Assembly: GCF_021390395.1 (NCBI RefSeq)
Contig: NZ_JAJUWT010000009.1
Location: 248,001 to 312,000 of the forward strand
Source: Saccharothrix sp. S26
GTDB lineage: Bacteria > Actinomycetota > Actinomycetes > Mycobacteriales > Pseudonocardiaceae
Length of the DNA: 64,000 nucleotides
Direction of reading: 5' to 3'
Shown here: one piece after another, positions 4,768 through 38,775 of the stretch
How the letters are laid out: every line of letters starts with the position of its first letter
Numbering within the stretch: position 1 is the first letter of the stretch
Translations under genes and position numbers: made by a program
Notes under the pieces: model-generated
The model's input: the letters and a program-made list of their open reading frames with translations, nothing else
The model's database searches: none
What the model was told of the DNA's origin: nothing

Positions 4768-7700
4768 GTGCCGGTGGTGGGGCGGACGGCTCGGCGGGTG
4801 TTCGTCAGCCACACGTCCGAGCTGCGCCGCCAGCCGTCCGGCCGGTCGTTCGTCGACGCCGTCGAGTCGGCGGTGGCGAAGGCCCGGGACGCCGTGGTGG
4901 ACATGGCGTACTTCCCGGCCCGGGACCGGCCGCCTGCCGCGGTGTGCGTCGAGGCCGTGGCGGCGGCGGACGTCTACGTCCTGGTGGCGGGCTTCCGGTA
5001 CGGCTCGCCGGTGCGCGACCGGCCGGAGGTGTCCTACACCGAGCTGGAGTTCGAGGCGGCCGGCGAGTCGCGCTTGCCGCGCCTGGTGTTCCTGCTCGGT
5101 GACGACACCGAAGGACCGGCCGAGCTGATGCGGGACCTGGAGCACGGCCCCCGGCAGGAGCGGTTCCGGCAGCGGTTGCGCGACAGCGGGCTGACCGTCG
5201 CCACGGTGTCCTCACCCGGTGAGCTGGAAGCGGCCGTGCTGCACGCGTTGCTGGAGTTGCCGCGGCCCGGTGCCGCCGGCGTGCGCGTGGGCGTGCCGGC
5301 GATGCTCGCCGACGGGTTCCAGGCACGGGAGCAGGTCGAACGGCTGGACCGTCACGGCGGCGCGACGCTGGTGCTGTCCGGCAACGGCGGCATGGGCAAG
5401 ACGCAACTGGCCGCGCACCACGCCGCCCGGCGGTGGGCCGACCCGGACCTGCGCCTGGCGATGTGGGTGTCGGCGAGCACGCGCGAGTCGGTCCTGTCGT
5501 CCTACGCGGAGGCCGCGAGCCGGGTGCTGGGCACGGCGTTCCCGAACCCGGAGGTGGCCGCGCTGCGGCTGCGCGAGTGGCTGGCCGGCTCCGGTGAGCG
5601 GTGGCTGGTCGTCCTGGACGACCTGCGCAGCCCCGAGCACCTGCACGACCTGTGGCCGCCGACCTCCCCGCACGGGCAGGTGCTGATCACCACGCGTCGC
5701 CGCGACCCCAGCCTGCTGCGGGCGGACCGCGAGCTGGTCGAGGTCGAGGTGTTCACCGCCGACGAGGCCGCGGCCTACCTGGCGGCGAAGCTCGCCCCGA
5801 CACCGCACCTGTCACCGGGCGCGGCGGAGCTGGCCGAGGACTTGGAGCGCATACCGCTGGCCCTGGCGCAGGCCGTGGCCTACCTGGTCAACCGCGACCT
5901 GACGTGCGCGCGGTACCGCGACCGGCTCGCGGATCGACGCCGCACGCTGCGCGAGGTCCTGCCCGGACCCGACGAGTTCACCGACGACCACCGCGACGTC
6001 CTCGCCGCGACCTGGACGTTGTCGGTGGAGCTGGCCGACGGGCTCGACCCGGTCGGCGTGGCGGGTCACGTGATGCGGGTGGCGTCGCTGCTGGACCCGG
6101 CGGGCATCCCGGCCGAGGTGTTCGCCACCGGGGCGGTGACCGCGCACCTGAGCCGTGCGACGGGCCGTGAGGTGGACGCGGACGACACCAGGGACGCGTT
6201 GTGGTGCCTGCACCGGTTGAACCTGCTCACCTGGGACCGGGCGGCGCGGCACCGGGAGGTGCGGATGCACGCCTTGGTGCAGCGCGCCGCGCGTGAGGCG
6301 TTCGCGGCGGACGGGGGCGTGCTGGACGAGGTCGTGGACGCCGCCGCTCAGGCCCTCGACGAGGTGTGGCCGGAGTTCACCCGGGACGCGGACCTGGTGT
6401 CGGCCCTGCGCGCCAACACGGCCGCGTTGCGGGCGGTCGCGGAGTCCGAGTTGTGGGCGGTGGGCGCGCACGGGGTGCTGTGCCGGGCCGCCGACAGCCT
6501 CGGTGCGGCGGGCGCGGTCGATGACGCGCGGGTGCAGTTCGAAGCGTTGCGGGAACAAGCGGAGCGCCACCTGGGTTCGCGGCACGTCGAGACGCTCGTG
6601 ATCCGCGCGAAGGCCGCGCAGTGGCTCGGCGAGACCGGTGACTTCGCCGGCGCGGCGGCCGCGACCGAGCAGGTGCTGCGGGACTGCGTCGACGTGCTGG
6701 GCCCCGATCACCCGCACACCCTCACGGCACGGGCCAACCTCGCGGTGTGGCTCGGCCAGAACGGCGACCTCGCCGGCGCCACCGCGACCACCGAGGAGCT
6801 GGTGCGGCGGGTCGGCCAGGCGGTCGGGCCGGACCACCCGGACGCGTTGATGGCGCGAGCCAACCTGGCCACCTGGCATGGCGAGGCGGGCGACACCGCG
6901 GCCGCGGTGACCGAGCTGGAGCAGTTGGTGGCCGACGCGACGCGGGCGCTGGGGCCCGACCACCCGCACACCCTCGTCAGCCGGGTCAAGCTGACCCGCT
7001 GGCTGGGCCAGGCCGGGCACGAGACCGCCGCCGCCCGGACCGAACAGCTGTTGGAGGACTTGATCAGGGTGTCCGGTCCGGACCACCCCGACACCCTCGT
7101 CACCCGCAGCAACCTCGCCCAGTGGCGGGGCGAGAGCAGCAGGGACGCGGCGGGCGCGGCCACCGAGCTGGCAGGGGTGGTGCGGGACATGACGAGGGTG
7201 TTGGGCCCCGGACACCCCGACACCCTCACCGCGCGCGACCACCTCGCCCACTGGCGGGGCCGTTCCGGTGACTCGGCCGGCGCGGTGGCGGCGTACGACG
7301 CGCTGGTGGAGGACTGCACCCGCCTCCTGGGCGCGGATCACCCGGCCACGCTGAGGGCACGCCACAACCGGGCGGGGCACCTGGGCGACGCCGGTGACGT
7401 GGCCGGCGCGCGAGCGGCCGCCGAACAGGTGCTGGCCGACAAGCTCAGGGTGCTGGGCCCGGACCACGTGCACACGCTGAGAGGACGGCACGTGCTCCTC
7501 TGGTGGCAGGCCAACGCGGGCGACCGGCCCGGCGCGGAGGCCGCCTGCGAACGACTGGTGGCCGACCTGACGCGGGTGTTGGGGCCGGACCACCACGACA
7601 CGCTGTACGTCCGAGCGTCGGGCGCGAGGCTGCGGGCCGATGGCGGCGACCCGACCGCCGCGATCACCCTCGCGGAACCGCTGCTGGAGGACATGATCCG

Positions 7701-7917
7701 GGTGCTGGGCCTGCGCCACCACGACACCGTCGCGGTGCGCCGCCTGCTCGCCCACTGGCGAGGTCTCGCCGCGCGCCCCCGCCTCGACGACCGGTCCGGG
7801 CTCACCGACCGCTTCTGGCCCGGCGACCGATCCGGACTCACCAACCGGCTCGGGCACGGCGACAGGCCCCGGCGCAACCGATCCCGACCCGGCGACCAGC
7901 CTGGACTGACCGACTGA
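4768..7917 (+). CDS. STAND protein: DUF4062 / NB-ARC / tetratricopeptide repeats
   Basis: 1049 residues. Residues 9-115 form a DUF4062-like domain (RRVFVSHTSELR, then YVLVAGFRYGSPV). The NB-ARC module follows: P-loop GNGGMGKTQ (about 205-213), Walker B WLVVLDDL, sensor QVLITTRR and the GxP-type IPLALAQAV. A winged-helix part (about 420-560) precedes about ten 42-residue TPR units (about 590-1000) with the recurring signature GPDHPDTLxxRxNLAxW. STAND ATPases of this layout act as signal switches, and relatives serve in regulation or anti-phage defence. The last 50 residues are Arg/Gly/Asp-rich and grade into the repetitive DNA downstream, so the C-terminus may be an added tail. GTG at 4768 is the first start after a GGGA purine run. 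Confidence 0.85.
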   Translation: MPVVGRTARRVFVSHTSELRRQPSGRSFVDAVESAVAKARDAVVDMAYFPARDRPPAAVCVEAVAAADVYVLVAGFRYGSPVRDRPEVSYTELEFEAAGESRLPRLVFLLGDDTEGPAELMRDLEHGPRQERFRQRLRDSGLTVATVSSPGELEAAVLHALLELPRPGAAGVRVGVPAMLADGFQAREQVERLDRHGGATLVLSGNGGMGKTQLAAHHAARRWADPDLRLAMWVSASTRESVLSSYAEAASRVLGTAFPNPEVAALRLREWLAGSGERWLVVLDDLRSPEHLHDLWPPTSPHGQVLITTRRRDPSLLRADRELVEVEVFTADEAAAYLAAKLAPTPHLSPGAAELAEDLERIPLALAQAVAYLVNRDLTCARYRDRLADRRRTLREVLPGPDEFTDDHRDVLAATWTLSVELADGLDPVGVAGHVMRVASLLDPAGIPAEVFATGAVTAHLSRATGREVDADDTRDALWCLHRLNLLTWDRAARHREVRMHALVQRAAREAFAADGGVLDEVVDAAAQALDEVWPEFTRDADLVSALRANTAALRAVAESELWAVGAHGVLCRAADSLGAAGAVDDARVQFEALREQAERHLGSRHVETLVIRAKAAQWLGETGDFAGAAAATEQVLRDCVDVLGPDHPHTLTARANLAVWLGQNGDLAGATATTEELVRRVGQAVGPDHPDALMARANLATWHGEAGDTAAAVTELEQLVADATRALGPDHPHTLVSRVKLTRWLGQAGHETAAARTEQLLEDLIRVSGPDHPDTLVTRSNLAQWRGESSRDAAGAATELAGVVRDMTRVLGPGHPDTLTARDHLAHWRGRSGDSAGAVAAYDALVEDCTRLLGADHPATLRARHNRAGHLGDAGDVAGARAAAEQVLADKLRVLGPDHVHTLRGRHVLLWWQANAGDRPGAEAACERLVADLTRVLGPDHHDTLYVRASGARLRADGGDPTAAITLAEPLLEDMIRVLGLRHHDTVAVRRLLAHWRGLAARPRLDDRSGLTDRFWPGDRSGLTNRLGHGDRPRRNRSRPGDQPGLTD

Positions 7918-8026
7918 TCCCGGCTCGACAACCACGCCGCGCGCCGCCACCCCTCCCAGCTCCGCAACCCGCCCCAACTCGGCGGCCAATCCGAGCGCGG
8001 CCACCAAACCGGCTCCGCGACCGGCC

Positions 8027-8250
8027 CGGGCTCAGCGGCCGATCCGGGCCTGACCACCGATCCCCGCGCTCCGCGACCGGTCCCCCGGCCGAATCCCGGG
8101 TCGGCGACCAGTCCGGGTTCGGCGATCAGCCCGGCTTGGCCGATCCCGGCCCGACACCCGCCCCCGCTCCGCGACCGATCCGAGCCCGACGACCAACCGC
8201 AGCCCGGCGACCAGTCCGGCGCGGCGACCGAACTGGCTCGGCGACCAGTC
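8027..8250. repeat. 224-bp tandem repeat, copy 1
   Basis: First unit of a direct duplication. Read by eye it differs from copy 2 at only two positions (near 8199-8203). The length is not a multiple of three and no frame is consistently coding, so this is not a protein repeat. Within the unit, shorter motifs of the type GGCGACCAGTCCGG recur, giving a nested minisatellite appearance. Confidence 0.85.
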
Positions 8251-8478
8251 CGGGCTCAGCGGCCGATCCGGGCCTGACCACCGATCCCCGCGCTCCGCGA
8301 CCGGTCCCCCGGCCGAATCCCGGGTCGGCGACCAGTCCGGGTTCGGCGATCAGCCCGGCTTGGCCGATCCCGGCCCGACACCCGCCCCCGCTCCGCGACC
8401 GATCCGAGCCCGACGACCAGCCCCAGCCCGGCGACCAGTCCGGCGCGGCGACCGAACTGGCTCGGCGACCAGTCCGGG
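8251..8478. repeat. 224-bp tandem repeat, copy 2
   Basis: Second unit, followed by four bases of a third. The 7918-8598 interval holds only this repeat and the response regulator's 5' region. Related short motifs also make up the last 130 bp of the upstream STAND gene. Confidence 0.85.
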
Positions 8479-8598
8479 ATCGAGGGTTCCGGTGGGTTGC
8501 CGGTGGACGGTTCCGCGCACGTCGGCGGTGAGCCGTTCGGCGTAACGGTTGGTATACCGTGGGCCGCGAGGTCGTGTCGAGAGCGAGGAGTTCCACCG

Positions 8599-9288
8599 GT
8601 GTCGCGGTTGCTGCTCGTGGAGGACGACGCGACGCTGGCCGAAGCGCTGTCGCGCGCGTTGCGCGGGCTCGGCCACGAGGTGGAGGTGGCGGACACCGGC
8701 GAGCGGGCGCTGGAGGCCCTAGGCGACCGGCGCACGTCGACGGACCTGGTGCTGCTGGACGTGATGCTGCCCGGCGTGGACGGGTTCGAGGTGTGCCGTC
8801 GCATCCGCGCGACCGACACCGTCCCGGTGATCCTGCTGACCGCGCGCGGTGACGCCGTGGACGTCGTGGTGGGGTTGGAGTGCGGTGCCGACGACTACGT
8901 CGTGAAGCCGGTCGAGCCGCGGGTGCTCGACGCGCGGGTGAAGGCGATCCTGCGCCGGGCCGCGCCCGCGCCGTCGCCGAAGCCGCACGTGCACACCGTC
9001 GGCGACCTCGAACTGGACACCGTCGCGATGGTGGTGACCCGTGCCGGGGTCGAGCTGAACCTCACCTCCACGGAGCTGCGCCTGCTGATCGAGTTCGTGC
9101 AGCACGCGGGCCAGGTGCTGAGCAGGCAGGTGCTGCTGAAGCGGGTGTGGGACTACGGGTTCGCGGGCGACTCGCGCCTGGTGGACGCCGCCGTGGCCCG
9201 CCTGCGGGCGAAGATCGAGCCCGAACCGGCCAACCCCGTGCTGCTGCGCACCGTGCGGGGGTTCGGCTACCGCCTGGTCAAGCCGTGA
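8599..9288 (+). CDS. OmpR/PhoB family response regulator
   Basis: 229 residues. The receiver domain has the acidic pair ED (8-9), phospho-acceptor Asp54 in LVLLDVMLPG, and the KP pair near residue 105. The C-terminal winged helix (about 130-225) ends RTVRGFGYRLVKP. GTG at 8599 follows GCGAGGAG; the longer upstream frame lacks a site and runs into the repeat region. The TGA overlaps the kinase GTG (GTGA), so the two are translationally coupled. Together with the kinase and the downstream VanY-like gene this resembles VanRS-type cell-wall sensing, although the ligand is unknown. Confidence 0.93.
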   Translation: MSRLLLVEDDATLAEALSRALRGLGHEVEVADTGERALEALGDRRTSTDLVLLDVMLPGVDGFEVCRRIRATDTVPVILLTARGDAVDVVVGLECGADDYVVKPVEPRVLDARVKAILRRAAPAPSPKPHVHTVGDLELDTVAMVVTRAGVELNLTSTELRLLIEFVQHAGQVLSRQVLLKRVWDYGFAGDSRLVDAAVARLRAKIEPEPANPVLLRTVRGFGYRLVKP

Positions 9289-10709
9289 CGTGGCGGCCGG
9301 GGCTGCGGGCCGCCATCGTGCTCACCGTCGCGGTTGTCACGCTGGTCACGACGGTCGCCATGGCGTTGACGACCTACCAGTTGCAAGCGGGGGCCGCGCG
9401 GGAGCGCTTCGCCTCCTCGGCACAGGCCGCGTTCGACTCCGACGCCCAGCAGGCGCACCAGTTCCTCGTCCGCAGCACCGCGTTCGAGTCCGCCGTGGGC
9501 GGGGTGGCCGAGTACATGCGGGCCAGGCTCGGCCTGACGTGGGCGTTGGTCAACTTCACGCCGACATCCGGCCCCGTCTCCACCTCCGACGACGGTGGGT
9601 ACGCGCCGGTGGCCGGCACGGGCGGGACGTTCCCCGGCCAGTTGCCCGCGCCCGAGGTGGACCGGGCTCGGCAGCAACGCGGTTCGGTGCGCTACCACGC
9701 GGACACCCCGGACGGGCCGCAGCTGGTGATCGTCGGCGAGGTGGAGCCGGGGTTGCTGCTGGCCGAGTTCTACAACACCCGCGGCCTCGACCGCGAGCTG
9801 GCCACCCTGCGCGACCGGTTGGCCGTCGTGGCGGCCGTGGTGGCGCTGCTCGGGGGCGCGTTGGGCGTGCTCGCGGCCCGCGTCGTCCAGCGCCGGGTGC
9901 GGACCGCGGCCGAGGCCGCCCGGCGCTTCGGGGACGGCGCGCTGGACACCCGGCTGCCGGTGCGGGGGCGTGACGAGCTGGCCGACCTCGCCGGGTCGTT
10001 CAACGCGATGGCGCAGCGGCTCGGCGAGTCCATCGAGCAACTGCGGCGCAAGGACCGGCAGCAGCGGCGGTTCGTCGCCGACGTGGCGCACGACCTGCGC
10101 ACGCCGCTGGCGTCGATGATCGCGGCGGCGGACGGGCTGGGCAGCCCGGACGCCGCCGACCGCGCGCGGTCGGCGGAACTGCTCGGCGCGCAGGCCCGGC
10201 GGCTCGGGGCGCTGGTCGAGGACCTGCTGGAGGTGTCGCGGTTCGACGCGGGCGCGGCCGAGCTGCGGCCCGACGTCGTGGACCTGGCCGCGCTGGCCGA
10301 GGACGCCGTCCGGCTGAGCGCGCCGGACGTGGACGTCCCGGTCCGGCGCACGGGTGACGTGGTGCTGTTCGGCGACCCGCGCCGCCTGCACACGATCGTG
10401 CGCAACCTCGTGACCAACGCGGTCCGGCACGGCGAACCGCCGGTCGAGGTGATCGTCGACGGCACGCGGCCCGACGAGGTGCGCGTGGTCGTCGCCGACT
10501 CCGGACCGGGTCTGCCCGCCGACCTGGTCCCGGTGGTCTTCGACCGCTTCGTGCGCGGCGACCGCGCCCGCAGCCGCACGGAGGGCAGTGGTCTGGGGCT
10601 GGCCATCGCCCAGGAGAACGCCCGGTTGCACGGCGGCCGGCTGGACGTGCGCAACGACGGTGGAGCGGTGTTCACGCTGACCGTGCCGCGCGGTGAGCCG
10701 CCGCGCTGA
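9285..10709 (+). CDS. Membrane sensor histidine kinase
   Basis: 474 residues. Transmembrane segments at about 9-29 and 178-200 flank a periplasm-side sensor of about 150 residues with no recognised fold. HAMP follows (about 200-255), then the HisKA motif VADVAHDLRTPLAS with His269. The catalytic domain has the N box NLVTNAVRHG, G1 VADSGPGLP and G2 GSGLGLAIA. The GTG start overlaps the regulator stop, fixing the start. It phosphorylates the preceding response regulator. Confidence 0.93.
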   Translation: MTWRPGLRAAIVLTVAVVTLVTTVAMALTTYQLQAGAARERFASSAQAAFDSDAQQAHQFLVRSTAFESAVGGVAEYMRARLGLTWALVNFTPTSGPVSTSDDGGYAPVAGTGGTFPGQLPAPEVDRARQQRGSVRYHADTPDGPQLVIVGEVEPGLLLAEFYNTRGLDRELATLRDRLAVVAAVVALLGGALGVLAARVVQRRVRTAAEAARRFGDGALDTRLPVRGRDELADLAGSFNAMAQRLGESIEQLRRKDRQQRRFVADVAHDLRTPLASMIAAADGLGSPDAADRARSAELLGAQARRLGALVEDLLEVSRFDAGAAELRPDVVDLAALAEDAVRLSAPDVDVPVRRTGDVVLFGDPRRLHTIVRNLVTNAVRHGEPPVEVIVDGTRPDEVRVVVADSGPGLPADLVPVVFDRFVRGDRARSRTEGSGLGLAIAQENARLHGGRLDVRNDGGAVFTLTVPRGEPPR

Positions 10710-10719
10710 TCGCCGTTGT

Positions 10720-10741
10720 CACACAACGCGCACACAACACG
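10720..10741 (+). promoter_or_regulatory. Tandem 11-bp direct repeats, probable response-regulator box
   Basis: CACACAACGCG is followed directly by CACACAACACG. OmpR-family regulators bind direct repeats spaced by one helical turn, and this pair lies upstream of the VanY-like gene, 10 bp after the kinase gene. It is therefore a likely site for activation of the third gene by the two-component system. Confidence 0.5.
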
Positions 10742-10802
10742 CATGGCACGGGGACATCCCGCGGGCAGTGTCGGACCGGTCCGGACCGGCACGACAGTGA
10801 GG

Positions 10803-11396
10803 ATGTCCATGTTCTGCCCTTCGGTGAGCGCACGTGCGGACGGTGACCGGCGATCGGGCCGACAGGCCCTGGCGGCGGTGGCCGGCGTGCTCGTGGTGGC
10901 GCTGTCGGCCTGCTCCCCCGAGTCCCCGATCGGGGCCCCCTGGCACGCCAAGGGGCGCGCGGCCGAGGACGGCAGCATCCCGGCCGACTCCAGCATCTCC
11001 CCCTACGACTCCGATCACCCCGCCATCGCCCGGCTGGACCCGGAGCTGCTGTCGGCGGTGCGGACGGCGGCGCAGGACGCTCGCGCGGCCGGCGTGGAGT
11101 TGCGGGTCACGTCGGGGTGGCGCAGCAAGGCCTACCAGCAACGCCTGCTCGACGACGCGGTCACCCGGTACGGCAGCCTGGAGGAGGCGCGGCGGCTGGT
11201 CAGCACGCCGGAGAAGTCGGCGCACGTGACCGGTGACGCCATCGACATCGGCCCGACCGACGCCGCCGACTGGCTGATCCGCCACGGTCGGGACTACGGC
11301 CTGTGCCAGACCTACGCCAACGAGATGTGGCACTTCGAGCTGTCGACCGCGCCGGGCGGCGAGTGCCCGGTCCCCCGCGACGACGCCGCCGGCTGA
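10803..11396 (+). CDS. VanY-like D-alanyl-D-alanine carboxypeptidase, lipoprotein
   Basis: 197 residues from ATG 10803. The signal peptide ends in a lipobox LSAC (about residues 35-38), so the mature enzyme should be anchored outside the membrane. The M15 peptidase zinc motif SAHVTGDAIDIG (about 139-150) and the second motif EMWHFEL near the C-terminus provide the expected His, Asp, Glu and His residues. VanY-type enzymes remove the terminal D-Ala from peptidoglycan stem peptides. Adjacency to the two-component system and the direct repeats in front suggest regulated cell-wall trimming. ATG 10809 is an alternative start. Confidence 0.85.
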   Translation: MSMFCPSVSARADGDRRSGRQALAAVAGVLVVALSACSPESPIGAPWHAKGRAAEDGSIPADSSISPYDSDHPAIARLDPELLSAVRTAAQDARAAGVELRVTSGWRSKAYQQRLLDDAVTRYGSLEEARRLVSTPEKSAHVTGDAIDIGPTDAADWLIRHGRDYGLCQTYANEMWHFELSTAPGGECPVPRDDAAG

Positions 11397-11406
11397 CCGA
11401 CACCCG

Positions 11407-11730
11407 TCACGAGCCGTCCGACGCGGCTTCCGGGCCGCATGGCTTCTCCAGCGGTCCGAGGTCGCGCCAGTTGAGCGACCACACCGCGACCTCGCCGCCC
11501 CGGACGTGCACCTGCGGGGGCACGCCGGCCAAACCGGCGGTCGGGTCGACCGGCGGCGCGGGCAGGGCGCCGAGGGTGGCTTCCAGCGCCGGGCCGAACT
11601 CCGGCGGGACGTCCCGCTTCGGCAGGGACGGCGGCGTGGTCGGGGTGGCGTCGCCTGGGCACGTGACGCGGACCGGGTCGCCCACCGCACCGTGCGCGTC
11701 GACGTGGATCCGCCAGACCGGGCGCGTCAT
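11407..11730 (-). CDS. Hypothetical protein
   Basis: 107 residues, starting at ATG 11730 (MTRPVWRIHVDAHG). No signal peptide, membrane segment or known domain is recognised. Third-position GC is high and the gene fits the gap between two oppositely oriented neighbours, which supports real coding. The frame extends much further upstream but loses coding character and overlaps the ArsR promoter, so the shorter start is preferred. Confidence 0.5.
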   Translation of the reverse strand: MTRPVWRIHVDAHGAVGDPVRVTCPGDATPTTPPSLPKRDVPPEFGPALEATLGALPAPPVDPTAGLAGVPPQVHVRGGEVAVWSLNWRDLGPLEKPCGPEAASDGS

Positions 11731-28264: not shown

Positions 28265-29653
28265 ATGCGCGTGAAACCCATGATTGCCTGCGTCGGCTTG
28301 TTGGCCGGTGCGTTGGTCGCGGTGGCGTCGTCCACCGCCCAGGCCGCGCCCACCCGCTACGAGGCGGAGAGCTCGCCCGCGGTCTGCTCGGGCTCGATCG
28401 ACACCGACTGGACCGGCTACTCCGGCAGCGGCTTCTGCAACGGCGCGAACTCCACGAGCGGCCACCTCCAGTTCACCGTGACCGCGCCGGCGGCCGGCAC
28501 GGCGACGGTGGGCGTCCGGTTCGCCAACGGCACCACCACCGCCCGACCGGCCAACCTGGTCGTGAACGGCGCGACCGCCCAGTCACCGTCGTTCGAGGGC
28601 ACGGGCGCCTGGTCGACCTGGGTGACCAAGACGTTCAGCGTGGCGGTCACCGCGGGCAGCAACACGATCCGGCTGAACCCGACCACCTCGGCCGGCCTGC
28701 CCAACGTCGACTACCTCGACGTCGAGACCGGCGGCGGCCCGCAGCCGCAGCCGCCCGGCGGGCTGGTCGGCTGGGCCGCGCAGGCGGGCGGCACCACCGG
28801 CGGCGCGGGCGGCGCCACGGTCACCGTGAGCACGTTCGCCGACTTCCGCGCGCAAGCACAGGCCGCGGGTGCCAGGACGATCCTGGTCAACGGCATGCTC
28901 AGCGGCACCGGCACGGTCGAGATCAGCGCCGACAAGACGATCCGGGGCGTCGGCGCGAGCTCGGGCATCTCCGGCACCACCCTCAACATCGAGGACATGA
29001 GCCCGGCCAACGTGATCATCCAGAACCTGAACATCCGCGGGAAGGTCGGCGGCGACGCGATCCAGATCGAGAGCGCCACGCACGTCTGGATCGACCACAA
29101 CACCATGTCCAGCACCATCGAGGACGACCCCGACCACTACGACGGCATGCTGGACATCACCCACGCGGCCGACTACATCACCGTGTCGTGGAACGTCATC
29201 CGCAACCACTGGAAGACCTCGCTGGTCGGCCACTCCGACGGCAACGGCGGTGAGGACCGCGGCCACCTGCGGGTCACCTACCACCACAACTGGTTCGACC
29301 GCACCTTCGAGCGCAGCCCGCGCGTGCGCTTCGGCGAGACCGTCCACGTGTTCAACAACTACTACACCGACATCGACCACAACGCGGACTCCTACGCCAT
29401 CGCCTCGCTCGAGGACGCCGGTCTCCTGGTGGAGGGCAACGTCTTCGAGAACGTGCGGCAGGCGTGCTGGTCGGCCAGCGGGTACGCGGATTCCGGCCCC
29501 GGGCGGCTGGTGGCGCGGGGCAACTCGCTGACCGCCTCCGGCCCGTGCGAGGTCAACGGCACCGTGGCCGCGATCCCGTACAGCTACACCGCCGAGGACG
29601 CCGGCTCGGTGAAGGCGTCGGTCACGGCGGGCTCCGGCGCGGGCAAGCTCTGA
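28265..29653 (+). CDS. Secreted pectate lyase, PL1 family with CBM35 module
   Basis: 462 residues from ATG 28265 (GGAG at 28254). Signal peptide about 1-28 (AQA end). Residues 30-150 form a CBM35-type module (YEAESSPAVCSGSIDTDW, ending VDYLDVE), which binds uronic-acid or other sugars. A Gly/Pro linker leads to the PL1 beta-helix (about 165-462). It carries the conserved HVWIDHNT, calcium-site Asp residues around DDPDHYDGMLDI, and the catalytic Arg region RTFERSPRVRFG. It cleaves polygalacturonate by beta-elimination outside the cell. Monocistronic with a strong promoter and a strong terminator. Confidence 0.93.
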   Translation: MRVKPMIACVGLLAGALVAVASSTAQAAPTRYEAESSPAVCSGSIDTDWTGYSGSGFCNGANSTSGHLQFTVTAPAAGTATVGVRFANGTTTARPANLVVNGATAQSPSFEGTGAWSTWVTKTFSVAVTAGSNTIRLNPTTSAGLPNVDYLDVETGGGPQPQPPGGLVGWAAQAGGTTGGAGGATVTVSTFADFRAQAQAAGARTILVNGMLSGTGTVEISADKTIRGVGASSGISGTTLNIEDMSPANVIIQNLNIRGKVGGDAIQIESATHVWIDHNTMSSTIEDDPDHYDGMLDITHAADYITVSWNVIRNHWKTSLVGHSDGNGGEDRGHLRVTYHHNWFDRTFERSPRVRFGETVHVFNNYYTDIDHNADSYAIASLEDAGLLVEGNVFENVRQACWSASGYADSGPGRLVARGNSLTASGPCEVNGTVAAIPYSYTAEDAGSVKASVTAGSGAGKL

Positions 29654-29703: not shown

Positions 29704-31788
29704 TCACGAAGTCGAGGAGCGGGCCTCGGCCAGGCACAGCTCCCGTTGGCGGTGCAGCTCGGCGACGTCGGCGTCGGGCAGCGCCAGCGCGCGGTCGAAG
29801 TCGCGCACCGCCGCCTCGGGGTCGTGGCGGGCCGCGTGCGCGATCCCCCGGTTCAGCAGCACGTCCGGGTCGTCGCCGACGATCTCCAGCGCGCGGGTCA
29901 GGTCGTCGACGGCCGCGTCGGGCCGCCCGCCGCGGAAGTGGGCGACGGCGCGGTTCACCAACGCCCCCGGGAAGCGCGGATCGGCGGCCAACGCCGCGTC
30001 GAGGTGCGCCAACGCCTCGTCCACGCGGTCGCGTTCCAACGCCACGGTGCCGCGCAGGGCGCGCAGCCGCGGTTCGCCGGGCCGCAGCCGCAACCCGGCT
30101 TCGGCGTCCGCGTCGGCGGCGTCGAGGTCGCCCGCCGCCAGCACCAGCTCGGCCCGGCTGAGCCGGGTGTCCACGTCGTCGGGCTCCATCTCCAGCACGT
30201 GGTCGAAGTCGGCCAGCGCGCCGTCGACGTCGCCGACCTCCAGCCGGGCCGTGCCGCGGTTGTAGTACAGCTCGGGAAACGGCGGGCCGAGGCGCACCGC
30301 GCGGTCGTAGTCGGCCAGGGCCGCCTCGAAGTCGCCGCCGCGGCGGTGCAGCTTGGCGCGTTCGCTGAGGTAGTCGGTGTAGTGCGGGTCCAGCTCGATC
30401 AGCCGGGTGAAGCCCTCGCGCGCCTCGTCCACGCGGCCCAGCGCGGCCAGCAGGCGGGTGCGGTTGTAGAGCAGCTGGGACCGGTGCAGCACCCAGTCGC
30501 CGTCGCCGAGCTCCTCGTCCAGCCGCGCCATGCCGTCCTCGACCAGGCGCAACGCGCGGTCGAGGTTGCCGCGGTGCATCTCCACCAGCGCCAACCCGTT
30601 GGCCTGGAACACCTCGTACGTGCGGCGCTCGGCGGGGTCGGGCAGCTGGGAGGCCAGCGCGTGGGCGTTGTTCTGCCAGCCGATCGCGGCCTCGTGGTCG
30701 CGCGGCTCGAAGAACCTCGTGTGCAGCATGGCGATGCTGTAGCTGGCGATCATGTGCACCTTGGGGTCCAGGAAACGCGCCCGCAGGTCCAGGTACAGCG
30801 CCAGGGACTCGTCGTGCCGCCCGAGCGCGACCAGGGCGGACGCCGCGTGCTGCGCGAACCGCAGGTACTGCTTCGGGTGCGCGTCGGGGTCGGTGACCGC
30901 GCGTCCCCGTTCGCCGAGGTCCACCACGGCGGCCGAGAAGCCGGTCTCGACGCACGCGCGGAACGCCCGGTCCAACGCCTCCCGGCCCGCGCCGCCCGGG
31001 TCGCCGCCGCGCTCCCGGTGCAACGCCAGCGCGCCGATCACCGTGCCCTGGCCCGCGCCCGGCTCCAGTTCGTCGGCGCGCTCGTCGTGCAGCCGGCGCA
31101 CCACGGCCGGGTCGGCGTCGCGGTAGGCGGCGAGTTCGGCCGGGTCGTCGCTGGTGCAGTCGGAGCGCACGTACGCGCGCACCAGCTCCTCCGGCGCACG
31201 CCGGTCGGGTGCGAGCGCGCCCGCCCGGTACGCCACCGCTTCCGGGAGCACGTCGGTCAGCTCGGCGTCCAGGTCGGCGTGGGCGGCGGACACGACGACG
31301 CGGGCCAGCGCGGGCGGGCAGCGGCGGGCCAGCAGGGCGATGAACTCGACCGCCGTCGGCTCGGCCTCGTGCACGTCCTCGAACACCACGCACAGCGCGG
31401 GCAACCCGGCCCGCGCGCGGGCACGGGCGTGCGCGACCAGGAACGTCACCACGCCCTGGCTCATGCACCGCACCATCTGCGCGCCGTAGAACCGGGTGCG
31501 CTGGTCGAACGGTGCCTCGTCGGCCAGCGTCGGCGGCGGCGGGCCGATCAGCTCGGCCAGCTCGGGGATGCCGTAGAGCAGCTCGCCGCGGTGCGCCTCG
31601 ACCAGCTCGGGGTGGCGGGCCGAGGCGTCGGGCAACACGGCGCGCAGCAGGTCGTCCACGCCGGTGTACGGGCCGCGCAGCCGTCGGTGGCACCCCACCA
31701 CGACCGGGTCCGCGCCGTCGAGGGCGTGCGCCAGGAACCGCTGCCGGTCGGCACGCCGACCGCCGTGGACCAACAGGTGCCCGGTCAT
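29704..31788 (-). CDS. TPR protein with degenerate ATPase-like N-terminus, RiPP-like locus
   Basis: 694 residues from ATG 31788, preceded by GGGGAA. The first 250 residues resemble the ATPase part of LuxR/MalT-type regulators: ALCVVFEDVHEAEPTAVEFI matches their Walker B region. However, the P-loop expected near residue 10 is replaced by HGGRRADRQRF, so ATP binding is doubtful. TPR units occupy about 290-690, with clear repeats such as YYNRGTARLEVGDVDGALADFD. No helix-turn-helix is present. The start overlaps the stop of the protease gene (ATGA), so it is translationally coupled to it. Likely a scaffold or sensor of the peptide locus; any role in modification or control is inference. Confidence 0.6.
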   Translation of the reverse strand: MTGHLLVHGGRRADRQRFLAHALDGADPVVVGCHRRLRGPYTGVDDLLRAVLPDASARHPELVEAHRGELLYGIPELAELIGPPPPTLADEAPFDQRTRFYGAQMVRCMSQGVVTFLVAHARARARAGLPALCVVFEDVHEAEPTAVEFIALLARRCPPALARVVVSAAHADLDAELTDVLPEAVAYRAGALAPDRRAPEELVRAYVRSDCTSDDPAELAAYRDADPAVVRRLHDERADELEPGAGQGTVIGALALHRERGGDPGGAGREALDRAFRACVETGFSAAVVDLGERGRAVTDPDAHPKQYLRFAQHAASALVALGRHDESLALYLDLRARFLDPKVHMIASYSIAMLHTRFFEPRDHEAAIGWQNNAHALASQLPDPAERRTYEVFQANGLALVEMHRGNLDRALRLVEDGMARLDEELGDGDWVLHRSQLLYNRTRLLAALGRVDEAREGFTRLIELDPHYTDYLSERAKLHRRGGDFEAALADYDRAVRLGPPFPELYYNRGTARLEVGDVDGALADFDHVLEMEPDDVDTRLSRAELVLAAGDLDAADADAEAGLRLRPGEPRLRALRGTVALERDRVDEALAHLDAALAADPRFPGALVNRAVAHFRGGRPDAAVDDLTRALEIVGDDPDVLLNRGIAHAARHDPEAAVRDFDRALALPDADVAELHRQRELCLAEARSSTS

Positions 31789-32987
31789 ACTCGTTCCCCT
31801 TCCGGGATCGGCGCGGGTGACGCGGTGGCGCGGGTGCGCCGCTTGCGCCGGGCCAGGTGCGCCACCAGCGCGAGCTGGCCGACGTTGATCGCCAGCGAGA
31901 CCACCGCGTCCCAGAAGTACAGGTCGTGCCGCCCGCCGGTGAGGTTGCGGGCGATGATCTCCACGTAGGCCACGACGACGGGCAGCGAGCCGAAGGCGGT
32001 CAGGGCGAGCATCACCGCCACGCCCAGCACGACGAACGGCCCGTACCAGCGGCCCGCGCGGCGGTCGTGCTCGGTCCAGCGGTCCTCGTCCACCAGCCGG
32101 TCGGGCCGGTCCAGCAGCCGCCACAGCCGGTTGCGCAGCAGGCCCACGCTCGCGTCGTGCAGGTCGTGGCAGCGCAGCGCGGTCGCGAACACGTAGTACA
32201 GGTCGGTCCTGAGGTAGAGCTGGAACTGCCAGACCAGCCGCATCACCACGGTGAAGCCCAGCGCCACGCACATGGCGCCGAACCACGACAGCCCGCCGCC
32301 CGCGGCACGCGTGACGTGGGCCAGCAGGCCGAGGGCGGCCAGCACCACCACGTCGATCGCCATGCCGGACAGGAAGGGCAGGTAGCGCTTGGCCGCGGGC
32401 ACGCTGAACAGACCGTTCATGCTGGTCTCGAAGACCACGTACAGGTACCGGTTGCTCATGCCCAGCTTGCTCGGCAGGCCCAGCCTGCGCCCGGCCAGCG
32501 TGTGGTAGCCCTCGTGCAGGAAGATCAGCGGCAACTGGCCGAACGTGATCACCAGCTGCACCACCAGGGTCGAGCCGGTGAAGAAGAACTGGCCCGGGTC
32601 GGGCACCACGTCGGCGTGCTCCGCGCCCACGACCAGCCACGCCACCGTGACGCCCGCGTAGAGCAGCCAGGCCAACGGCGAGAACACCGCCCGGCCGAGC
32701 CACCCGAAGCGCACCGGCCGGGTCACCACCGCCTCGTCGCCCTCGCGCACGAAACCCAGTTCGCGCATGGCTTCGAGGAAGTCGTCCACGTCCACGGCCT
32801 CGCCGAACTCGGCCTCGTACCAGTCGGCCGCCGCCGTGGGGCTGTGGCCCTCGGTCATCCGCCGCAGCAGCGCCGCGCCGTCCGCGGGCAGCACGGCGTA
32901 CGCGCCGGTGTCCAGCCGGCCGACCACGACGTCCTCGCCCTCGGGGACGAAGCTCAAGTCGTGGAACGGCACCGGTGTCCCGCCCAT
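31785..32987 (-). CDS. PqqD-like domain fused to M50-type membrane metalloprotease
   Basis: 400 residues. Residues 1-80 match the PqqD/RRE fold that grips RiPP leader peptides (YAVLPADGAALLRRM, then FLEAMRELGFV). The rest has about six membrane helices with HEGYH (about 156-160), an HExxH zinc motif inside a helix as in M50 site-2-type proteases. A later LPFLSGMAID may supply the third ligand. This predicts one membrane protein that recognises a short peptide and cuts it. The gene lies 55 bp after a 33-codon peptide gene and overlaps the TPR gene. B. subtilis YydH is a known M50 protein in a peptide operon, but an RRE fused to the protease is unusual. No radical-SAM, YcaO or lanthionine enzyme is adjacent. 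Confidence 0.75.
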   Translation of the reverse strand: MGGTPVPFHDLSFVPEGEDVVVGRLDTGAYAVLPADGAALLRRMTEGHSPTAAADWYEAEFGEAVDVDDFLEAMRELGFVREGDEAVVTRPVRFGWLGRAVFSPLAWLLYAGVTVAWLVVGAEHADVVPDPGQFFFTGSTLVVQLVITFGQLPLIFLHEGYHTLAGRRLGLPSKLGMSNRYLYVVFETSMNGLFSVPAAKRYLPFLSGMAIDVVVLAALGLLAHVTRAAGGGLSWFGAMCVALGFTVVMRLVWQFQLYLRTDLYYVFATALRCHDLHDASVGLLRNRLWRLLDRPDRLVDEDRWTEHDRRAGRWYGPFVVLGVAVMLALTAFGSLPVVVAYVEIIARNLTGGRHDLYFWDAVVSLAINVGQLALVAHLARRKRRTRATASPAPIPEGERV

Positions 32988-33042
32988 GAAGCCCCCTTCC
33001 CGCCGGAAGGGCCGCGCGCACGCGGCGCGCGGCCCCGGTCCG

Positions 33043-33144
33043 TCAGACCTCGACGCTGTACGGGCACTTGCAGGTGGCGGTGGTCAGGCGCACGTCGCCC
33101 GTCCGCCGGACGGTGATCTTCTTCATCTTCGTGGTCGTCTTCAC
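33043..33144 (-). CDS. Putative RiPP precursor peptide (33 aa)
   Basis: GTG 33144 to TGA, preceded by AGGAGGA (33148-33154), the best ribosome site in this part of the window. The peptide starts MKTTTKMKKITVRRTGDV, a basic leader-like half, and ends RLTTATCKCPYSVEV. It has two cysteines spaced by one residue and a run of Thr, residues typical of modified cores. It is followed on the same strand by the PqqD-M50 protease, which would be its processing enzyme. I do not recognise a described peptide class. An ordinary small protein cannot be excluded, but the leader/core asymmetry and neighbour argue for a precursor. Confidence 0.6.
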   Translation of the reverse strand: MKTTTKMKKITVRRTGDVRLTTATCKCPYSVEV

Positions 33145-33197
33145 GGGTCCTCCTCGGCTCCGGTGGCGCCGCCATGGCTGCGCGGCAGGGAATTCCT

Positions 33198-33227: not shown

Positions 33228-33452
33228 CAGAACGACTCCGGAACAACCGCAGAACAGTGGTGCCGAGGCAGTCGGTGAAATGCCGGTACGCCACCCGGAC
33301 GACCCGGGGAGCGCCCACGGCGCACAGCGGCGCGAACGCAATCCTCCGTTCGCCGAAGCGCTATTCCGGTGGACACCCGTTCAGCCGATGTACCCCTCCG
33401 GCCCCCGTGTCAGGATCTGTTCCTCGTTCCGCCGGTGAATGGAGGGTCACTC

Positions 33453-33911
33453 GTGCCGAACGCCCACAGACCGAGCGCGGGCGGCGACCCCGCGACCCAG
33501 CTCGGCCGGGAGCTGCTGCGCCTGCGCACGGCCCGCGGCCTGTCGCTGCGACGCCTGGCCCGGCTGCTGGGCATGACCGCCCACAGCGGCCTGGTCGACT
33601 ACGAGCGGGGCCTGCGGATTCCCCCGCGCGACCTGATGTCGGCCTACATCCGGGTGCTGTCGCCGCACGACGACGGGCTGCTGGAGGTCTACCGCGCCGC
33701 CCTCGACAGCCGCGCCGCCCGCCGCGTGGCCGCGTTCCGCCCCCTCGCGCCCGTGCCGGCCGAGGGCCGGGTCGCGCCGGACCACCTGGCCGAGCACCAC
33801 GTGCTCACCGGTCTCGCCCAAACGTTGGAGAACGTGGCCGACCAATTGCGCGTGCTGGCCGCCGCCTGGGTCGCACCCGGTCCCGAAGTGGCCGAAGGAA
33901 CCGGTTCCTGA
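33453..33911 (+). CDS. XRE-type HTH regulator
   Basis: 152 residues from GTG 33453 with GGAGGG seven bases before. The helix-turn-helix is at about 16-60 (LGRELLRLRTARGLSLRRL, then GLVDYERGLRIPP). The C-terminal part, about 65-150, is helical and could sense a ligand or dimerise. Divergent from the peptide/protease/TPR operon, so it is its likely regulator. A longer frame to 33369 lacks a ribosome site. Confidence 0.8.
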   Translation: MPNAHRPSAGGDPATQLGRELLRLRTARGLSLRRLARLLGMTAHSGLVDYERGLRIPPRDLMSAYIRVLSPHDDGLLEVYRAALDSRAARRVAAFRPLAPVPAEGRVAPDHLAEHHVLTGLAQTLENVADQLRVLAAAWVAPGPEVAEGTGS

Positions 33912-36758: not shown

Positions 36759-37721
36759 TCAGCGCGCGGCCGCTTCGTCGTGGAGGTCGGACAGGGTTCG
36801 GGCGGTGAGGGAGGCCAGTCGCGCCTCGGTGGCCGCCGAGAGGCCGAGCCGGTTGCACAGCAGGTGCGCGCAGCGCAGCACGACGTAGGGCACCACCGGG
36901 TCTTCGGGGCGCACGGCCCGCGCCAGGCCCGCGAACGGCGACAGCGAGTCCACCGGCGCGAAGTCGCCCCGCGCCCGCAGCCCGGTCAACGTCGCGTGCA
37001 GGGCGTGGATCGACAGCCACCAGGCCGCCAAGGGGTCGGTCGAGGCGGGGTCGGCGAGTTCTGAGGACGCCCAGGCCCACAGCCGCCGGGTCTGGTCGAG
37101 CAGGTCGTCCCGGGGTAGCGGCGCGGTCGGCTGCCGGGTGCGCACCGAGGCGAAGCGCGCGGCGGCCCGTTCGAGGTCCGGCTCGCACACCGCGACGGCG
37201 AGCGTGAGCATGGCCAGTGCCGCACCGGCGCGCCGCTCGGGCGGTGCGGCCAGCAGGCGCACGGCGAGGTGGCTGGAGTCGGTGAAGTGCCGTTCGACGG
37301 CGCGCAACGCCCGGCCTTCGCCGTAGGCGTGGTGCTCCGGCTCGTAGGCGACGAACTCCACCGTGTCGACCGGCCGCAGCCGTCGGTCCCACCGGGCCAG
37401 GCGCTCGTCCTCGGCCCGGCGGCGGGCGAGGGCCTCGTACTCGTGCTGGGACCAGCCGTCGGGCGGCGAGGGGTGCTCGGCGAGGTGCCGGGCGCACGCC
37501 CGGACCACCGCGACCCGGACGTCCCGCGGGTGCGCCTTGACCAGCAGCCGCAGCCGCACGTGCGGTCCGCCTTCCCAGTAGCGGAGGAAGAACCAGCCGC
37601 GCACGCGCCCGCCGCGGGACAGCTCCTCGCACAGCGGAGCGACCGCGCGGGTGACGAGGAGGTCCTGGTCGCCGCGGTGGAAGACGTGCGCGCCGACCCA
37701 GTCACGAACGGGCTCGGGCAC
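36759..37721 (-). CDS. Lantibiotic/thiopeptide dehydratase C-terminal domain protein (stand-alone)
   Basis: 320 residues from GTG 37721, with GAGAGGAGG eight bases before. The N-terminus DWVGAHVFHRGDQDLLVTRA and the segment GWFFLRYWEGGPHVRLRLLV are hallmarks of the Lant_dehydr_C (SpaB C-terminal) family. This family provides the glutamate-elimination half of split LanB enzymes or, in thiopeptides, the pyridine-forming cycloaddition enzyme. No N-terminal dehydratase half is nearby; the only one in the window lies 23 kb away. An in-frame ATG at 37916 has a very good AAGGAGG site but would add 65 residues of non-coding character. Substrate unknown. Confidence 0.78.
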   Translation of the reverse strand: MPEPVRDWVGAHVFHRGDQDLLVTRAVAPLCEELSRGGRVRGWFFLRYWEGGPHVRLRLLVKAHPRDVRVAVVRACARHLAEHPSPPDGWSQHEYEALARRRAEDERLARWDRRLRPVDTVEFVAYEPEHHAYGEGRALRAVERHFTDSSHLAVRLLAAPPERRAGAALAMLTLAVAVCEPDLERAAARFASVRTRQPTAPLPRDDLLDQTRRLWAWASSELADPASTDPLAAWWLSIHALHATLTGLRARGDFAPVDSLSPFAGLARAVRPEDPVVPYVVLRCAHLLCNRLGLSAATEARLASLTARTLSDLHDEAAAR

Positions 37722-38122: not shown

Positions 38123-38251
38123 GTGACCGCAACGCTCTTGGCGCACTCGGCAGGCAGCAGCAGAGCCGTCGTGCCGGGAATCGGCATTTCCCGCCCAGTG
38201 GACCGCGGCACGGTTTCCCGAATCGGGAACCCGGCGGAGGTCGACCGGTGA
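38123..38251 (+). CDS. Small ORF (42 aa) coupled to flavin reductase
   Basis: GTG 38123 follows GGAGGA (38112-38117) by five bases. The ORF ends in TGA overlapping the reductase GTG (GTGA), a coupling seen for real genes. The product begins MTATLLAHSAGSSRAVVPG and ends RIGNPAEVDR. It has six Ser, three Thr and no Cys. It could be a peptide substrate for the divergent dehydratase-C protein, or simply a translational leader for the reductase. No family is recognised. Confidence 0.5.
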   Translation: MTATLLAHSAGSSRAVVPGIGISRPVDRGTVSRIGNPAEVDR

Positions 38252-38775
38252 CGGCCACGACCCGCGAGTCACGCGACCGCGCGTCCGCGGTGGACGCCGG
38301 GGAGTTCCGGCGGGTGTTCCGCCGCCACCCCGCCGGCGTCGTGGTCGTCACGGTCGACGCCGAGCGCGGCCCGGCCGGGTTCACCGCGACGTCGCTGACC
38401 TCGGTGTCGGCCGAGCCGCCGGTGGTCTGCTTCGGCATCTCCGCCGGCTCCTCCAGTTGGCCGCACGTGCGCGACGCGGCGAGCATCGTGGTGAACTTCC
38501 TGGGCGTGCACCAGGAAGACCTCGCCCGCCGGTTCGCCACGCACGGCGTGGACCGCTTCGCCGCGCCCACCCGGTGGCGTCGCCTCGCGGACGGCGAACC
38601 GGTCCTGGACGACACGGCGGGTTGGCTGCGGGCCGAGGTGGAGGCGCTCGTCCCGGTGGGTGACCACCACCTCGTGCTGGCCCGCGTCACCGCCACCGAC
38701 CTGCGTGAGGCCACCCCTCCCCTGCTCTACCACGACGGCCGCTACCACTCGCTCCAGGACGTGCCGTCGAGCTGA
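38248..38775 (+). CDS. Flavin reductase-like domain protein
   Basis: 175 residues from GTG 38248, with GGAGG seven bases upstream. FRRHPAGVVVVTVDAERGPAGFTATSLTS is the FMN-binding start of the flavin reductase/HpaC group (quoted here in two parts: FRRHPAGVVVVT and GPAGFTATSLTS). It is followed by PPVVCFGISAGSSSWPHV and a DGRYH ending. These enzymes use NAD(P)H to reduce free flavin for a partner monooxygenase or halogenase. No such partner is adjacent. Confidence 0.85.
   Translation: MTATTRESRDRASAVDAGEFRRVFRRHPAGVVVVTVDAERGPAGFTATSLTSVSAEPPVVCFGISAGSSSWPHVRDAASIVVNFLGVHQEDLARRFATHGVDRFAAPTRWRRLADGEPVLDDTAGWLRAEVEALVPVGDHHLVLARVTATDLREATPPLLYHDGRYHSLQDVPSS

Follow-up and report, generated by a model that had tools for sequence, protein, structure and literature searches.

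A basic-leader peptide, a RiPP recognition element-M50 protease fusion and a tetratricopeptide repeat protein as a candidate peptide maturation unit of Saccharothrix and related actinobacteria

Among the described systems closest to the one treated here are the daptides, in which the protease MpaP/DapP carries an N-terminal RiPP recognition element (RRE; RiPP, ribosomally synthesised and post-translationally modified peptide) on an intramembrane site-2 protease and is encoded beside short precursor open reading frames (ORFs), several in some clusters; as published, it offers a direct example of leader removal by an RRE-dependent intramembrane peptidase (PMC10036551). A fusion of the same architecture is encoded in a 64,000-nucleotide stretch of Saccharothrix sp. 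S26 (contig NZ_JAJUWT010000009.1, positions 248,001 to 312,000; the whole stretch is called the window below, and the host genome is 9.08 Mb), where three adjoining minus-strand genes specify a short peptide, an RRE-M50 fusion protease and a tetratricopeptide repeat (TPR) protein. A preliminary description had presented these genes as a system that was not recognised; the fusion by itself is not unrecognised, as an RRE-site-2-protease fusion is already known as the daptide leader peptidase (PMC10036551). The locus nevertheless differs from daptides, with MpaP compared through its published description: the daptide leader has the motif ELExMEAP and the C-terminal Thr is invariant, whereas here the leader reads MKKIxVRKxGxVRLT, none of 34 aligned peptides has a C-terminal Thr, a TPR gene follows the protease at all 32 loci scored, and PF00465 is not near.

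Epipeptides are modified by a radical S-adenosylmethionine enzyme, Eep is an M50 protease, and we know of no RRE in the SHP-Eep-Rgg/RRNPPA systems. M50 membrane proteases act on small ribosomal peptides in the case of EpeP (epipeptides) and TglG/TmoG (pearlins), but the available part of the source describes no N-terminal RRE fusion for them, and their precursors and modifying enzymes (peptide aminoacyl-tRNA ligases, PEARLs) are different ones (PMC10885120). In the lasso B1 proteins (5v1u, 5v1v, 6jx3) the RRE fold has been solved with bound leader, and they are the best structural match of residues 4-84 of the fusion; they are however stand-alone RREs, and the lasso protease is described as having a transglutaminase-like domain (PMC10885120). 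TmcP, the TMcin protease, is a site-2-clan enzyme that cleaves off a RiPP leader within the membrane, but from a substrate with a transmembrane helix, and the portion of the report at hand mentions no RRE (PMC13252029). The SHP-Eep-Rgg/RRNPPA systems combine a short peptide, processing by a protease and a TPR-fold receptor; as far as the source at hand goes, this receptor usually bears a helix-turn-helix (HTH) or Rap effector domain, and the systems belong to Bacillota (PMC9765709). BhaC1/AmmC1, finally, is a TPR-containing protein that acts on a RiPP scaffold peptide via predicted charge complementarity. In its published description, through which it was compared, BhaC1 is a known flavin mononucleotide (FMN) enzyme of pearlin biosynthesis acting on a C-terminal Trp, and it sets a precedent for scaffold-peptide modification by a TPR protein (PMC9850906).

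The three genes of the window recur as a set. When 397 genomes of the window's order were searched with the protease, 52 matched, falling into a closer group (about 41-94% identical to the window protease, the window itself excluded) and a distant group (about 25-36%). A draw across the class matched 14 of 296 genomes, and a scan of genome contigs returned one relative only, Saccharothrix sp. NRRL B-16348, 91% identical over the fusion. The 32 scored loci comprise 28 from the order search (window included), NRRL B-16348, two from the class draw (43% and 38% identical to the window) and one on a Streptomyces plasmid (39%). At every one of them a short ORF with the leader pattern, variants included, lies upstream of the protease and a TPR homologue lies just downstream. 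The window-type set was found in the window's order, in two further genomes of the class and on the Streptomyces plasmid; a search of the phylum with the TPR alignment matched 151 of 198 genomes, mostly through generic TPR proteins. In a protease tree of 60 rows all 29 TPR-linked sequences fall on one side of a single branch (support 100/98). The window sequence agrees with the preliminary description in gene order, coordinates, the four bases shared by the TPR start and the fusion stop (ATGA, 31785-31788), the GAGGAGGA site and the HEGYH motif, and its expectation that homologous fusions would be preceded by a conserved short ORF has been borne out at all 32 TPR-linked loci scored.

The window peptide reads M(V)KTTTKMKKITVRRTGDVRLTTATCKCPYSVEV. 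Over the alignment of 34 peptides the leader consensus is nearly fixed and basic (mean net charge +5.6, range 4 to 9) and its alternating pattern would suit a beta strand, while the tail is variable and 11-24 residues long; precursors across the family measure 26-41 residues. The homologous peptides are also preceded by purine-rich stretches. A regular expression for the leader, run over open frames of less than 110 residues on both strands of 42 oriented stretches of about 12-20 kb each, matched in 19 of the stretches, always upstream of the protease and nowhere else. A peptide profile was run on 47 genomes. All 26 that have a TPR-linked protease gave hits of E 1.7e-10 or lower, and in 20 protease-free controls from the same genus or family the best value was E 0.03; since most of these peptides had gone into building the profile, only the negative side of the comparison is independent. 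Judged from sequence, the short ORF recurs more often than by chance and is a genuine peptide gene. Compared with the window, two close relatives show one and three base changes in the peptide DNA, either synonymous or in the start codon, and in other close pairs compared the amino-acid changes sit in an N-terminal extension ahead of MKK/MKR. One Cys-rich peptide of the 34 matched the streptolysin-S family (E 0.0098), which was dismissed as an effect of Cys composition.

A CxC core had been expected. On reading the list of tails, CxC was counted in just 12 of 37, and what is conserved instead is that Cys and Tyr occur together, as they do in 36 of the 37 against 1.2 expected from background composition. 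These tails are not independent: a single genome contributes seven of them, and by reading there are 32 different ones, of which 31 have both Cys and Tyr. The L028 peptide, being the same as that of L026, was left out of the count. At L058 in genome G157 (10437-11543, minus strand) one protease-TPR pair is preceded by seven peptide genes in tandem. Their leaders are near-identical and they share SAAQPLYxGxC cores with unlike C-terminal ends, which suggests that selection keeps the stretch up to the Cys.

Domain calls made on the window fusion by sequence alone were too weak to decide, and the RRE was settled by a structure model. Among 26 homologues Pfam gives weak matches to PqqD in nine and to M50 in nine (best M50 E 8.9e-5), and the NCBIfam model lasso_PqqD_Strm, a lasso PqqD chaperone, matches weakly in seven. 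In the AlphaFold2 model (mean pLDDT 86.1) residues 11-76 form three strands followed by three helices, the order given as defining RREs (PMC12710340). The RRE earlier assigned to residues 1-80 is upheld: residues 4-84 model as one, matching the lasso B1 RRE-leader complexes 6jx3_B and 5v1u_A, both with Z 10.1, and a lasso RRE is the first row of the Foldseek search (probability 1.00, E 0.098). Residues 92-400 match SpoIVFB, RseP and the Methanocaldococcus jannaschii site-2 protease (mjS2P) with Z 7.4-8.0, where Z 7-8 is a range that the alignment tool flags as common. His158, Glu159, His162, Asp212 and Asp262 are invariant in 26 aligned fusion sequences; Asp262 would be the third zinc ligand, and the modelled membrane bundle presents the HExxH and distal Asp of a site-2 (M50) protease. 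Over their first 85 residues the 26 fusions average a net charge of -12, opposite to that of the basic leader. Of the features of RRE-dependent RiPP systems, the locus thus shows a predicted beta3-alpha3 winged-helix RRE in a biosynthetic protein and, adjoining it, a putative short precursor whose leader is conserved and whose core varies.

Between the peptide stop and the protease start an uninterrupted stem of at least 10 bp can be drawn in 25 of the 26 loci folded (out of 32), the exception being L049 with 9 bp. Shuffled spacers have mean stems of 5.5-8.4 bp, and the mean energy z of the real spacers is -3.1; for the window it is just -1.5, and its 12-bp stem was equalled in 2 of 100 shuffles. 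As the stem sequences differ among loci, structure rather than sequence seems to be kept, and the hairpin may attenuate read-through and so raise the amount of peptide relative to enzyme.

The TPR protein is modelled with pLDDT 92, and its residues 263-693 are matched by TPR superhelices. Of 23 members, 19 match AAA_16 weakly over the N-terminal approximately 240 residues (E 1.8e-4 at best, 0.12 for the window protein). No Walker A motif was seen in the window protein, the N-terminal domain has no match among PDB sequences, and a profile comparison of this domain with three STAND regulators gave a probability of 14.6% over 61 columns. The TPR proteins are acidic: the window protein has a net charge of -33, and the per-residue mean of 25 is close to the tenth percentile when ranked against the 305 proteins, themselves including TPR proteins, that were called from these stretches. 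Of 27 genomes, each holding 1-9 copies of a flavin reductase-like gene (PF01613), 14 by hand count have one no more than 6 kb from the protease. In 12 genomes the distance is within about 2.5 kb; in the window it is 5.3 kb and in G290 4.3 kb, both on the other strand. In the set of 42 stretches used for neighbour genes, PF01613 is the next gene after TPR at nine loci.

We consider it probable that the locus is a minimal RiPP-like peptide maturation unit. This reading is based on the peptide and TPR genes at 32 of 32 loci, the single protease clade, the conserved leader with its variable tail, the joint Cys and Tyr, the tandem precursors of L058, the hairpin, the PF01613 linkage, the RRE and site-2 protease folds, the complementary charges of leader and RRE, and a short ORF with similar leader beside 28 of 32 related proteases outside the TPR clade. 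The peptide would be made in excess over the enzymes if the hairpin 3' of its stop reduces read-through. Its basic leader would be held by the acidic N-terminal RRE, whose fold is modelled, as lasso B1 proteins hold leaders, and the site-2-type zinc protease would cut near the VRLTxxA boundary, whereby the Cys/Tyr tail, or most of its residues, would be freed at the membrane. The TPR protein, which is acidic and in the window translationally coupled to the protease, would hold the peptide and most likely share in tailoring the tail, for which the flavin reductase often encoded alongside may in some species supply reduced flavin. These steps are not equally firm: we regard the one from leader through RRE to protease as very likely, the part of the TPR protein as a peptide-handling partner as fairly likely, and flavin-dependent tailoring as possible though doubtful. 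Of the RRE-guided membrane protease proposed earlier to act on the upstream peptide, the conserved ORF and the RRE model have come out in its favour, and binding and cleavage are predicted from sequence and model. The parallel claim that no classical modifying enzyme is present is right for the three-gene core and has to be qualified by the flavin reductase gene in about half of the genomes.

Several observations weigh against a maturation unit of this kind. The window fusion matches Pfam PqqD with E 0.0056, short of the curated cut-off, and has no M50 match in the Pfam scan; its site-2-protease match lies in the common Z range given above, and Foldseek returned nothing for the model at E 0.001 or below. 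On inspection by eye the precursors lack a transmembrane segment, although substrates of site-2 proteases usually have one. Among the 37 tails that of the plasmid-borne L169 lacks both Cys and Tyr; L169 is the first branch off the TPR clade as the protease tree is drawn and its most divergent member. Among recurrent clustered neighbours, identified in part, no classical modifying enzyme or exporter was recognised, and 13 of the 27 genomes have no flavin reductase gene within 6 kb, the copy of the window itself being a distant one. At L149 (G310, 7656-9731) the TPR gene is preceded by a decayed-looking peptide, MKKIRIRLPGPVPLAAAACLVPALVS (peptide-profile E 2.5e-5), with no protease between them, in a genome without a TPR-linked protease; persistence of the TPR gene beside such a peptide suggests that it may have a role of its own.

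If the TPR protein is not just a peptide-handling partner, it is conceivable, but on the whole unlikely, that it is an FMN-dependent hydroxylase like BhaC1/AmmC1 that oxidises the tail Tyr (or Cys), with PF01613 recycling the flavin and the protease cutting last. BhaC1 is, in its published description, a TPR-containing FMN enzyme without an obvious flavin-binding domain, and its charged TPR cleft is predicted to bind a scaffold peptide of opposite charge (PMC9850906); in the present set the signs are the other way round yet again complementary, and the PF01613 linkage fits. On the other hand PF01613 is not always present, and among the matches listed, mostly to TPR repeats, there is none to such an enzyme from NCBIfam, Pfam or PDB sequences.

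Somewhat more unlikely still is a peptide-pheromone circuit, in which the protease would free an RRE-addressed signal peptide and the TPR protein would be its intracellular receptor, as in SHP-Eep-Rgg or Phr-Rap of Bacillota, perhaps descended from a STAND/LuxR-type regulator with a lost P-loop. The architecture of tiny peptide, M50-type protease and TPR protein fits such a circuit, as do the weakly AAA_16-like N-terminal domain, the XRE-type gene beside the window set and the BTAD/SARP-like genes described below, and RRNPPA receptors are described as holding peptides in the TPR groove (PMC9765709). However, domain scans recognised no DNA-binding domain or HTH on the TPR protein, no conserved importer was recognised among the clustered neighbours of the 42 stretches, RRE domains are otherwise known from modification pathways, and the near-invariant Cys and Tyr speak for chemistry rather than mere recognition.

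That the short ORF is a regulatory upstream ORF or attenuator for the protease operon, its product having no function as a peptide, would agree with the conserved hairpin behind it, but we hold it to be very improbable, given that the leader is kept at the amino-acid level with synonymous changes, the tails are enriched in Cys and Tyr, L058 has seven tandem copies, and the peptide matches the fused RRE. A reduced daptide cluster would account for the shared RRE-site-2-protease architecture (PMC10036551) and is extremely improbable; membership was rejected on the hallmarks compared, the unlike leader, the missing C-terminal Thr and the distance of PF00465, an Fe-alcohol dehydrogenase of actinobacterial daptide clusters that here occurs within 10 kb in just one of 29 genomes (35.7 bits; cut-off 31.3) and in the window genome has its sole match on another contig. 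Further hallmarks of daptides are an aminotransferase, a methyltransferase and a DUF-RRE protein.

Returning to the maturation unit, it is tempting to speculate that it stands for an actinobacterial class of peptide signalling or of redox peptides, in which a hydrophilic precursor would be addressed to the site-2 protease by an RRE rather than by a signal sequence or transmembrane helix, and the released Cys/Tyr peptide would have a pseudo-STAND TPR protein as its dedicated receptor or flavin-dependent tailoring enzyme. Such a class would belong, as one branch among others, to a larger superfamily of peptides served by RRE-site-2 proteases, in which the remaining branches often have a ThiF-type E1; we regard this as quite possible, though short of probable. 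The fusion is not new, and it is the peptide family together with its TPR partner that apparently makes an undescribed unit, be it a factory or a signalling device. Titles and beginnings of abstracts in the open-access literature, a scope that leaves subscription journals and preprints outside PMC aside, gave no such peptide family or RRE-M50-TPR set among the matches listed, and no NCBIfam model fits the peptide family or the partner TPR protein. In one annotated relative the three genes are labelled 'hypothetical protein', 'hypothetical protein' and 'tetratricopeptide repeat protein', and what was so labelled has become a testable peptide system. The occurrence of the RRE-site-2-protease fusion beyond daptides suggests a general module for several peptide classes, and the leader motif can be used for finding short precursor genes elsewhere.

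Outside the TPR clade (32 loci) the protease usually follows a ThiF-type E1 gene, which forms a cluster of 26 loci labelled from one member checked with Pfam (ThiF E 1.9e-45). A related short ORF with an IxVRKxExxxxT-like leader was found at 28 of these 32 loci, 25 by profile and three more, and is missing at L158, L164, L167 and L168; the counts are weaker than those of the TPR clade, because 16 of these peptides served to seed the profile and, of its 25 hits, eight score just 10-13 bits. Several IxVRKxE-type peptides of L064-L079 and L152-L168 end in PSDS/TDS/PDS or NPSG, endings that might point to activation of the C-terminus. The loci L068, L069 and L070 have the gene order ThiF-M50-DUF3105 (Pfam-checked in L069) and, about 1.3 kb upstream of the protease, a peptide of about 40 residues ending GCRND(V/L)CG. 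A protease branch without ThiF (L076, L078, L152, L162, L067, L072) has peptides of the type MKKLxVRRLExVKTSA..C, and some of its loci are near genes that on reading their sequence resemble those for 3-hydroxy-3-methylglutaryl-coenzyme A synthase or phosphopantetheinyl transferase.

Table 1. Positions in the window of the three-gene set, its parts and selected neighbouring genes.
Feature	Position	Strand	Basis or remark
TPR protein, 694 aa: ~240-residue weakly AAA_16-like domain + TPR superhelix	29704..31788	-	sequence, model
RRE-M50 (site-2) protease fusion, 400 aa	31785..32987	-	sequence, alignment, model
HEGYH zinc-binding motif, residues 158-162	32502..32516	-	sequence; H, E, H invariant in alignment
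RRE domain (predicted), residues 4-84	32736..32978	-	model topology, structure match
Hairpin, 12-bp uninterrupted stem, just 3' of peptide stop, no T run	33008..33036	-	folding
Precursor peptide gene, 33 aa	33043..33144	-	GTG start; leader MKTTTKMKKITVRRTGDVRLT + tail TATCKCPYSVEV
Candidate core: variable tail TATCKCPYSVEV with stop codon	33043..33081	-	peptide alignment
Leader, residues 1-21, strongly basic	33082..33144	-	peptide alignment
Ribosome-binding site GAGGAGGA of peptide gene	33148..33155	-	read from sequence
XRE-type HTH gene, divergent, possible regulator	33453..33911	+	Pfam HTH_31 E 1.9e-7 on longer ORF 33369-33911
Stand-alone PF14028 (Lant_dehydr_C) gene	36759..37721	-	Pfam
Flavin reductase-like gene (PF01613), possible accessory	38248..38775	+	Pfam; 5.3 kb away, other strand

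Neighbour-gene clusters were computed over the 42 locus stretches. The XRE-type gene of the window has relatives in four of the stretches, and genes like BTAD/SARP regulators (cluster C2, labelled from sequence reading) occur in 16; at a ThiF-type locus one gene carries a BTAD annotation. The stand-alone PF14028 gene was tried as a core partner and rejected, as among the genes called in these stretches its BLAST relatives are confined to the window and L040 and absent from L009, which is 91% identical; L040 has a close PF14028 homologue near the locus plus a second, weakly similar gene. On the other side of the set, convergent with the TPR gene, the window encodes a pectate lyase with a carbohydrate-binding module (28265-29653, plus strand).

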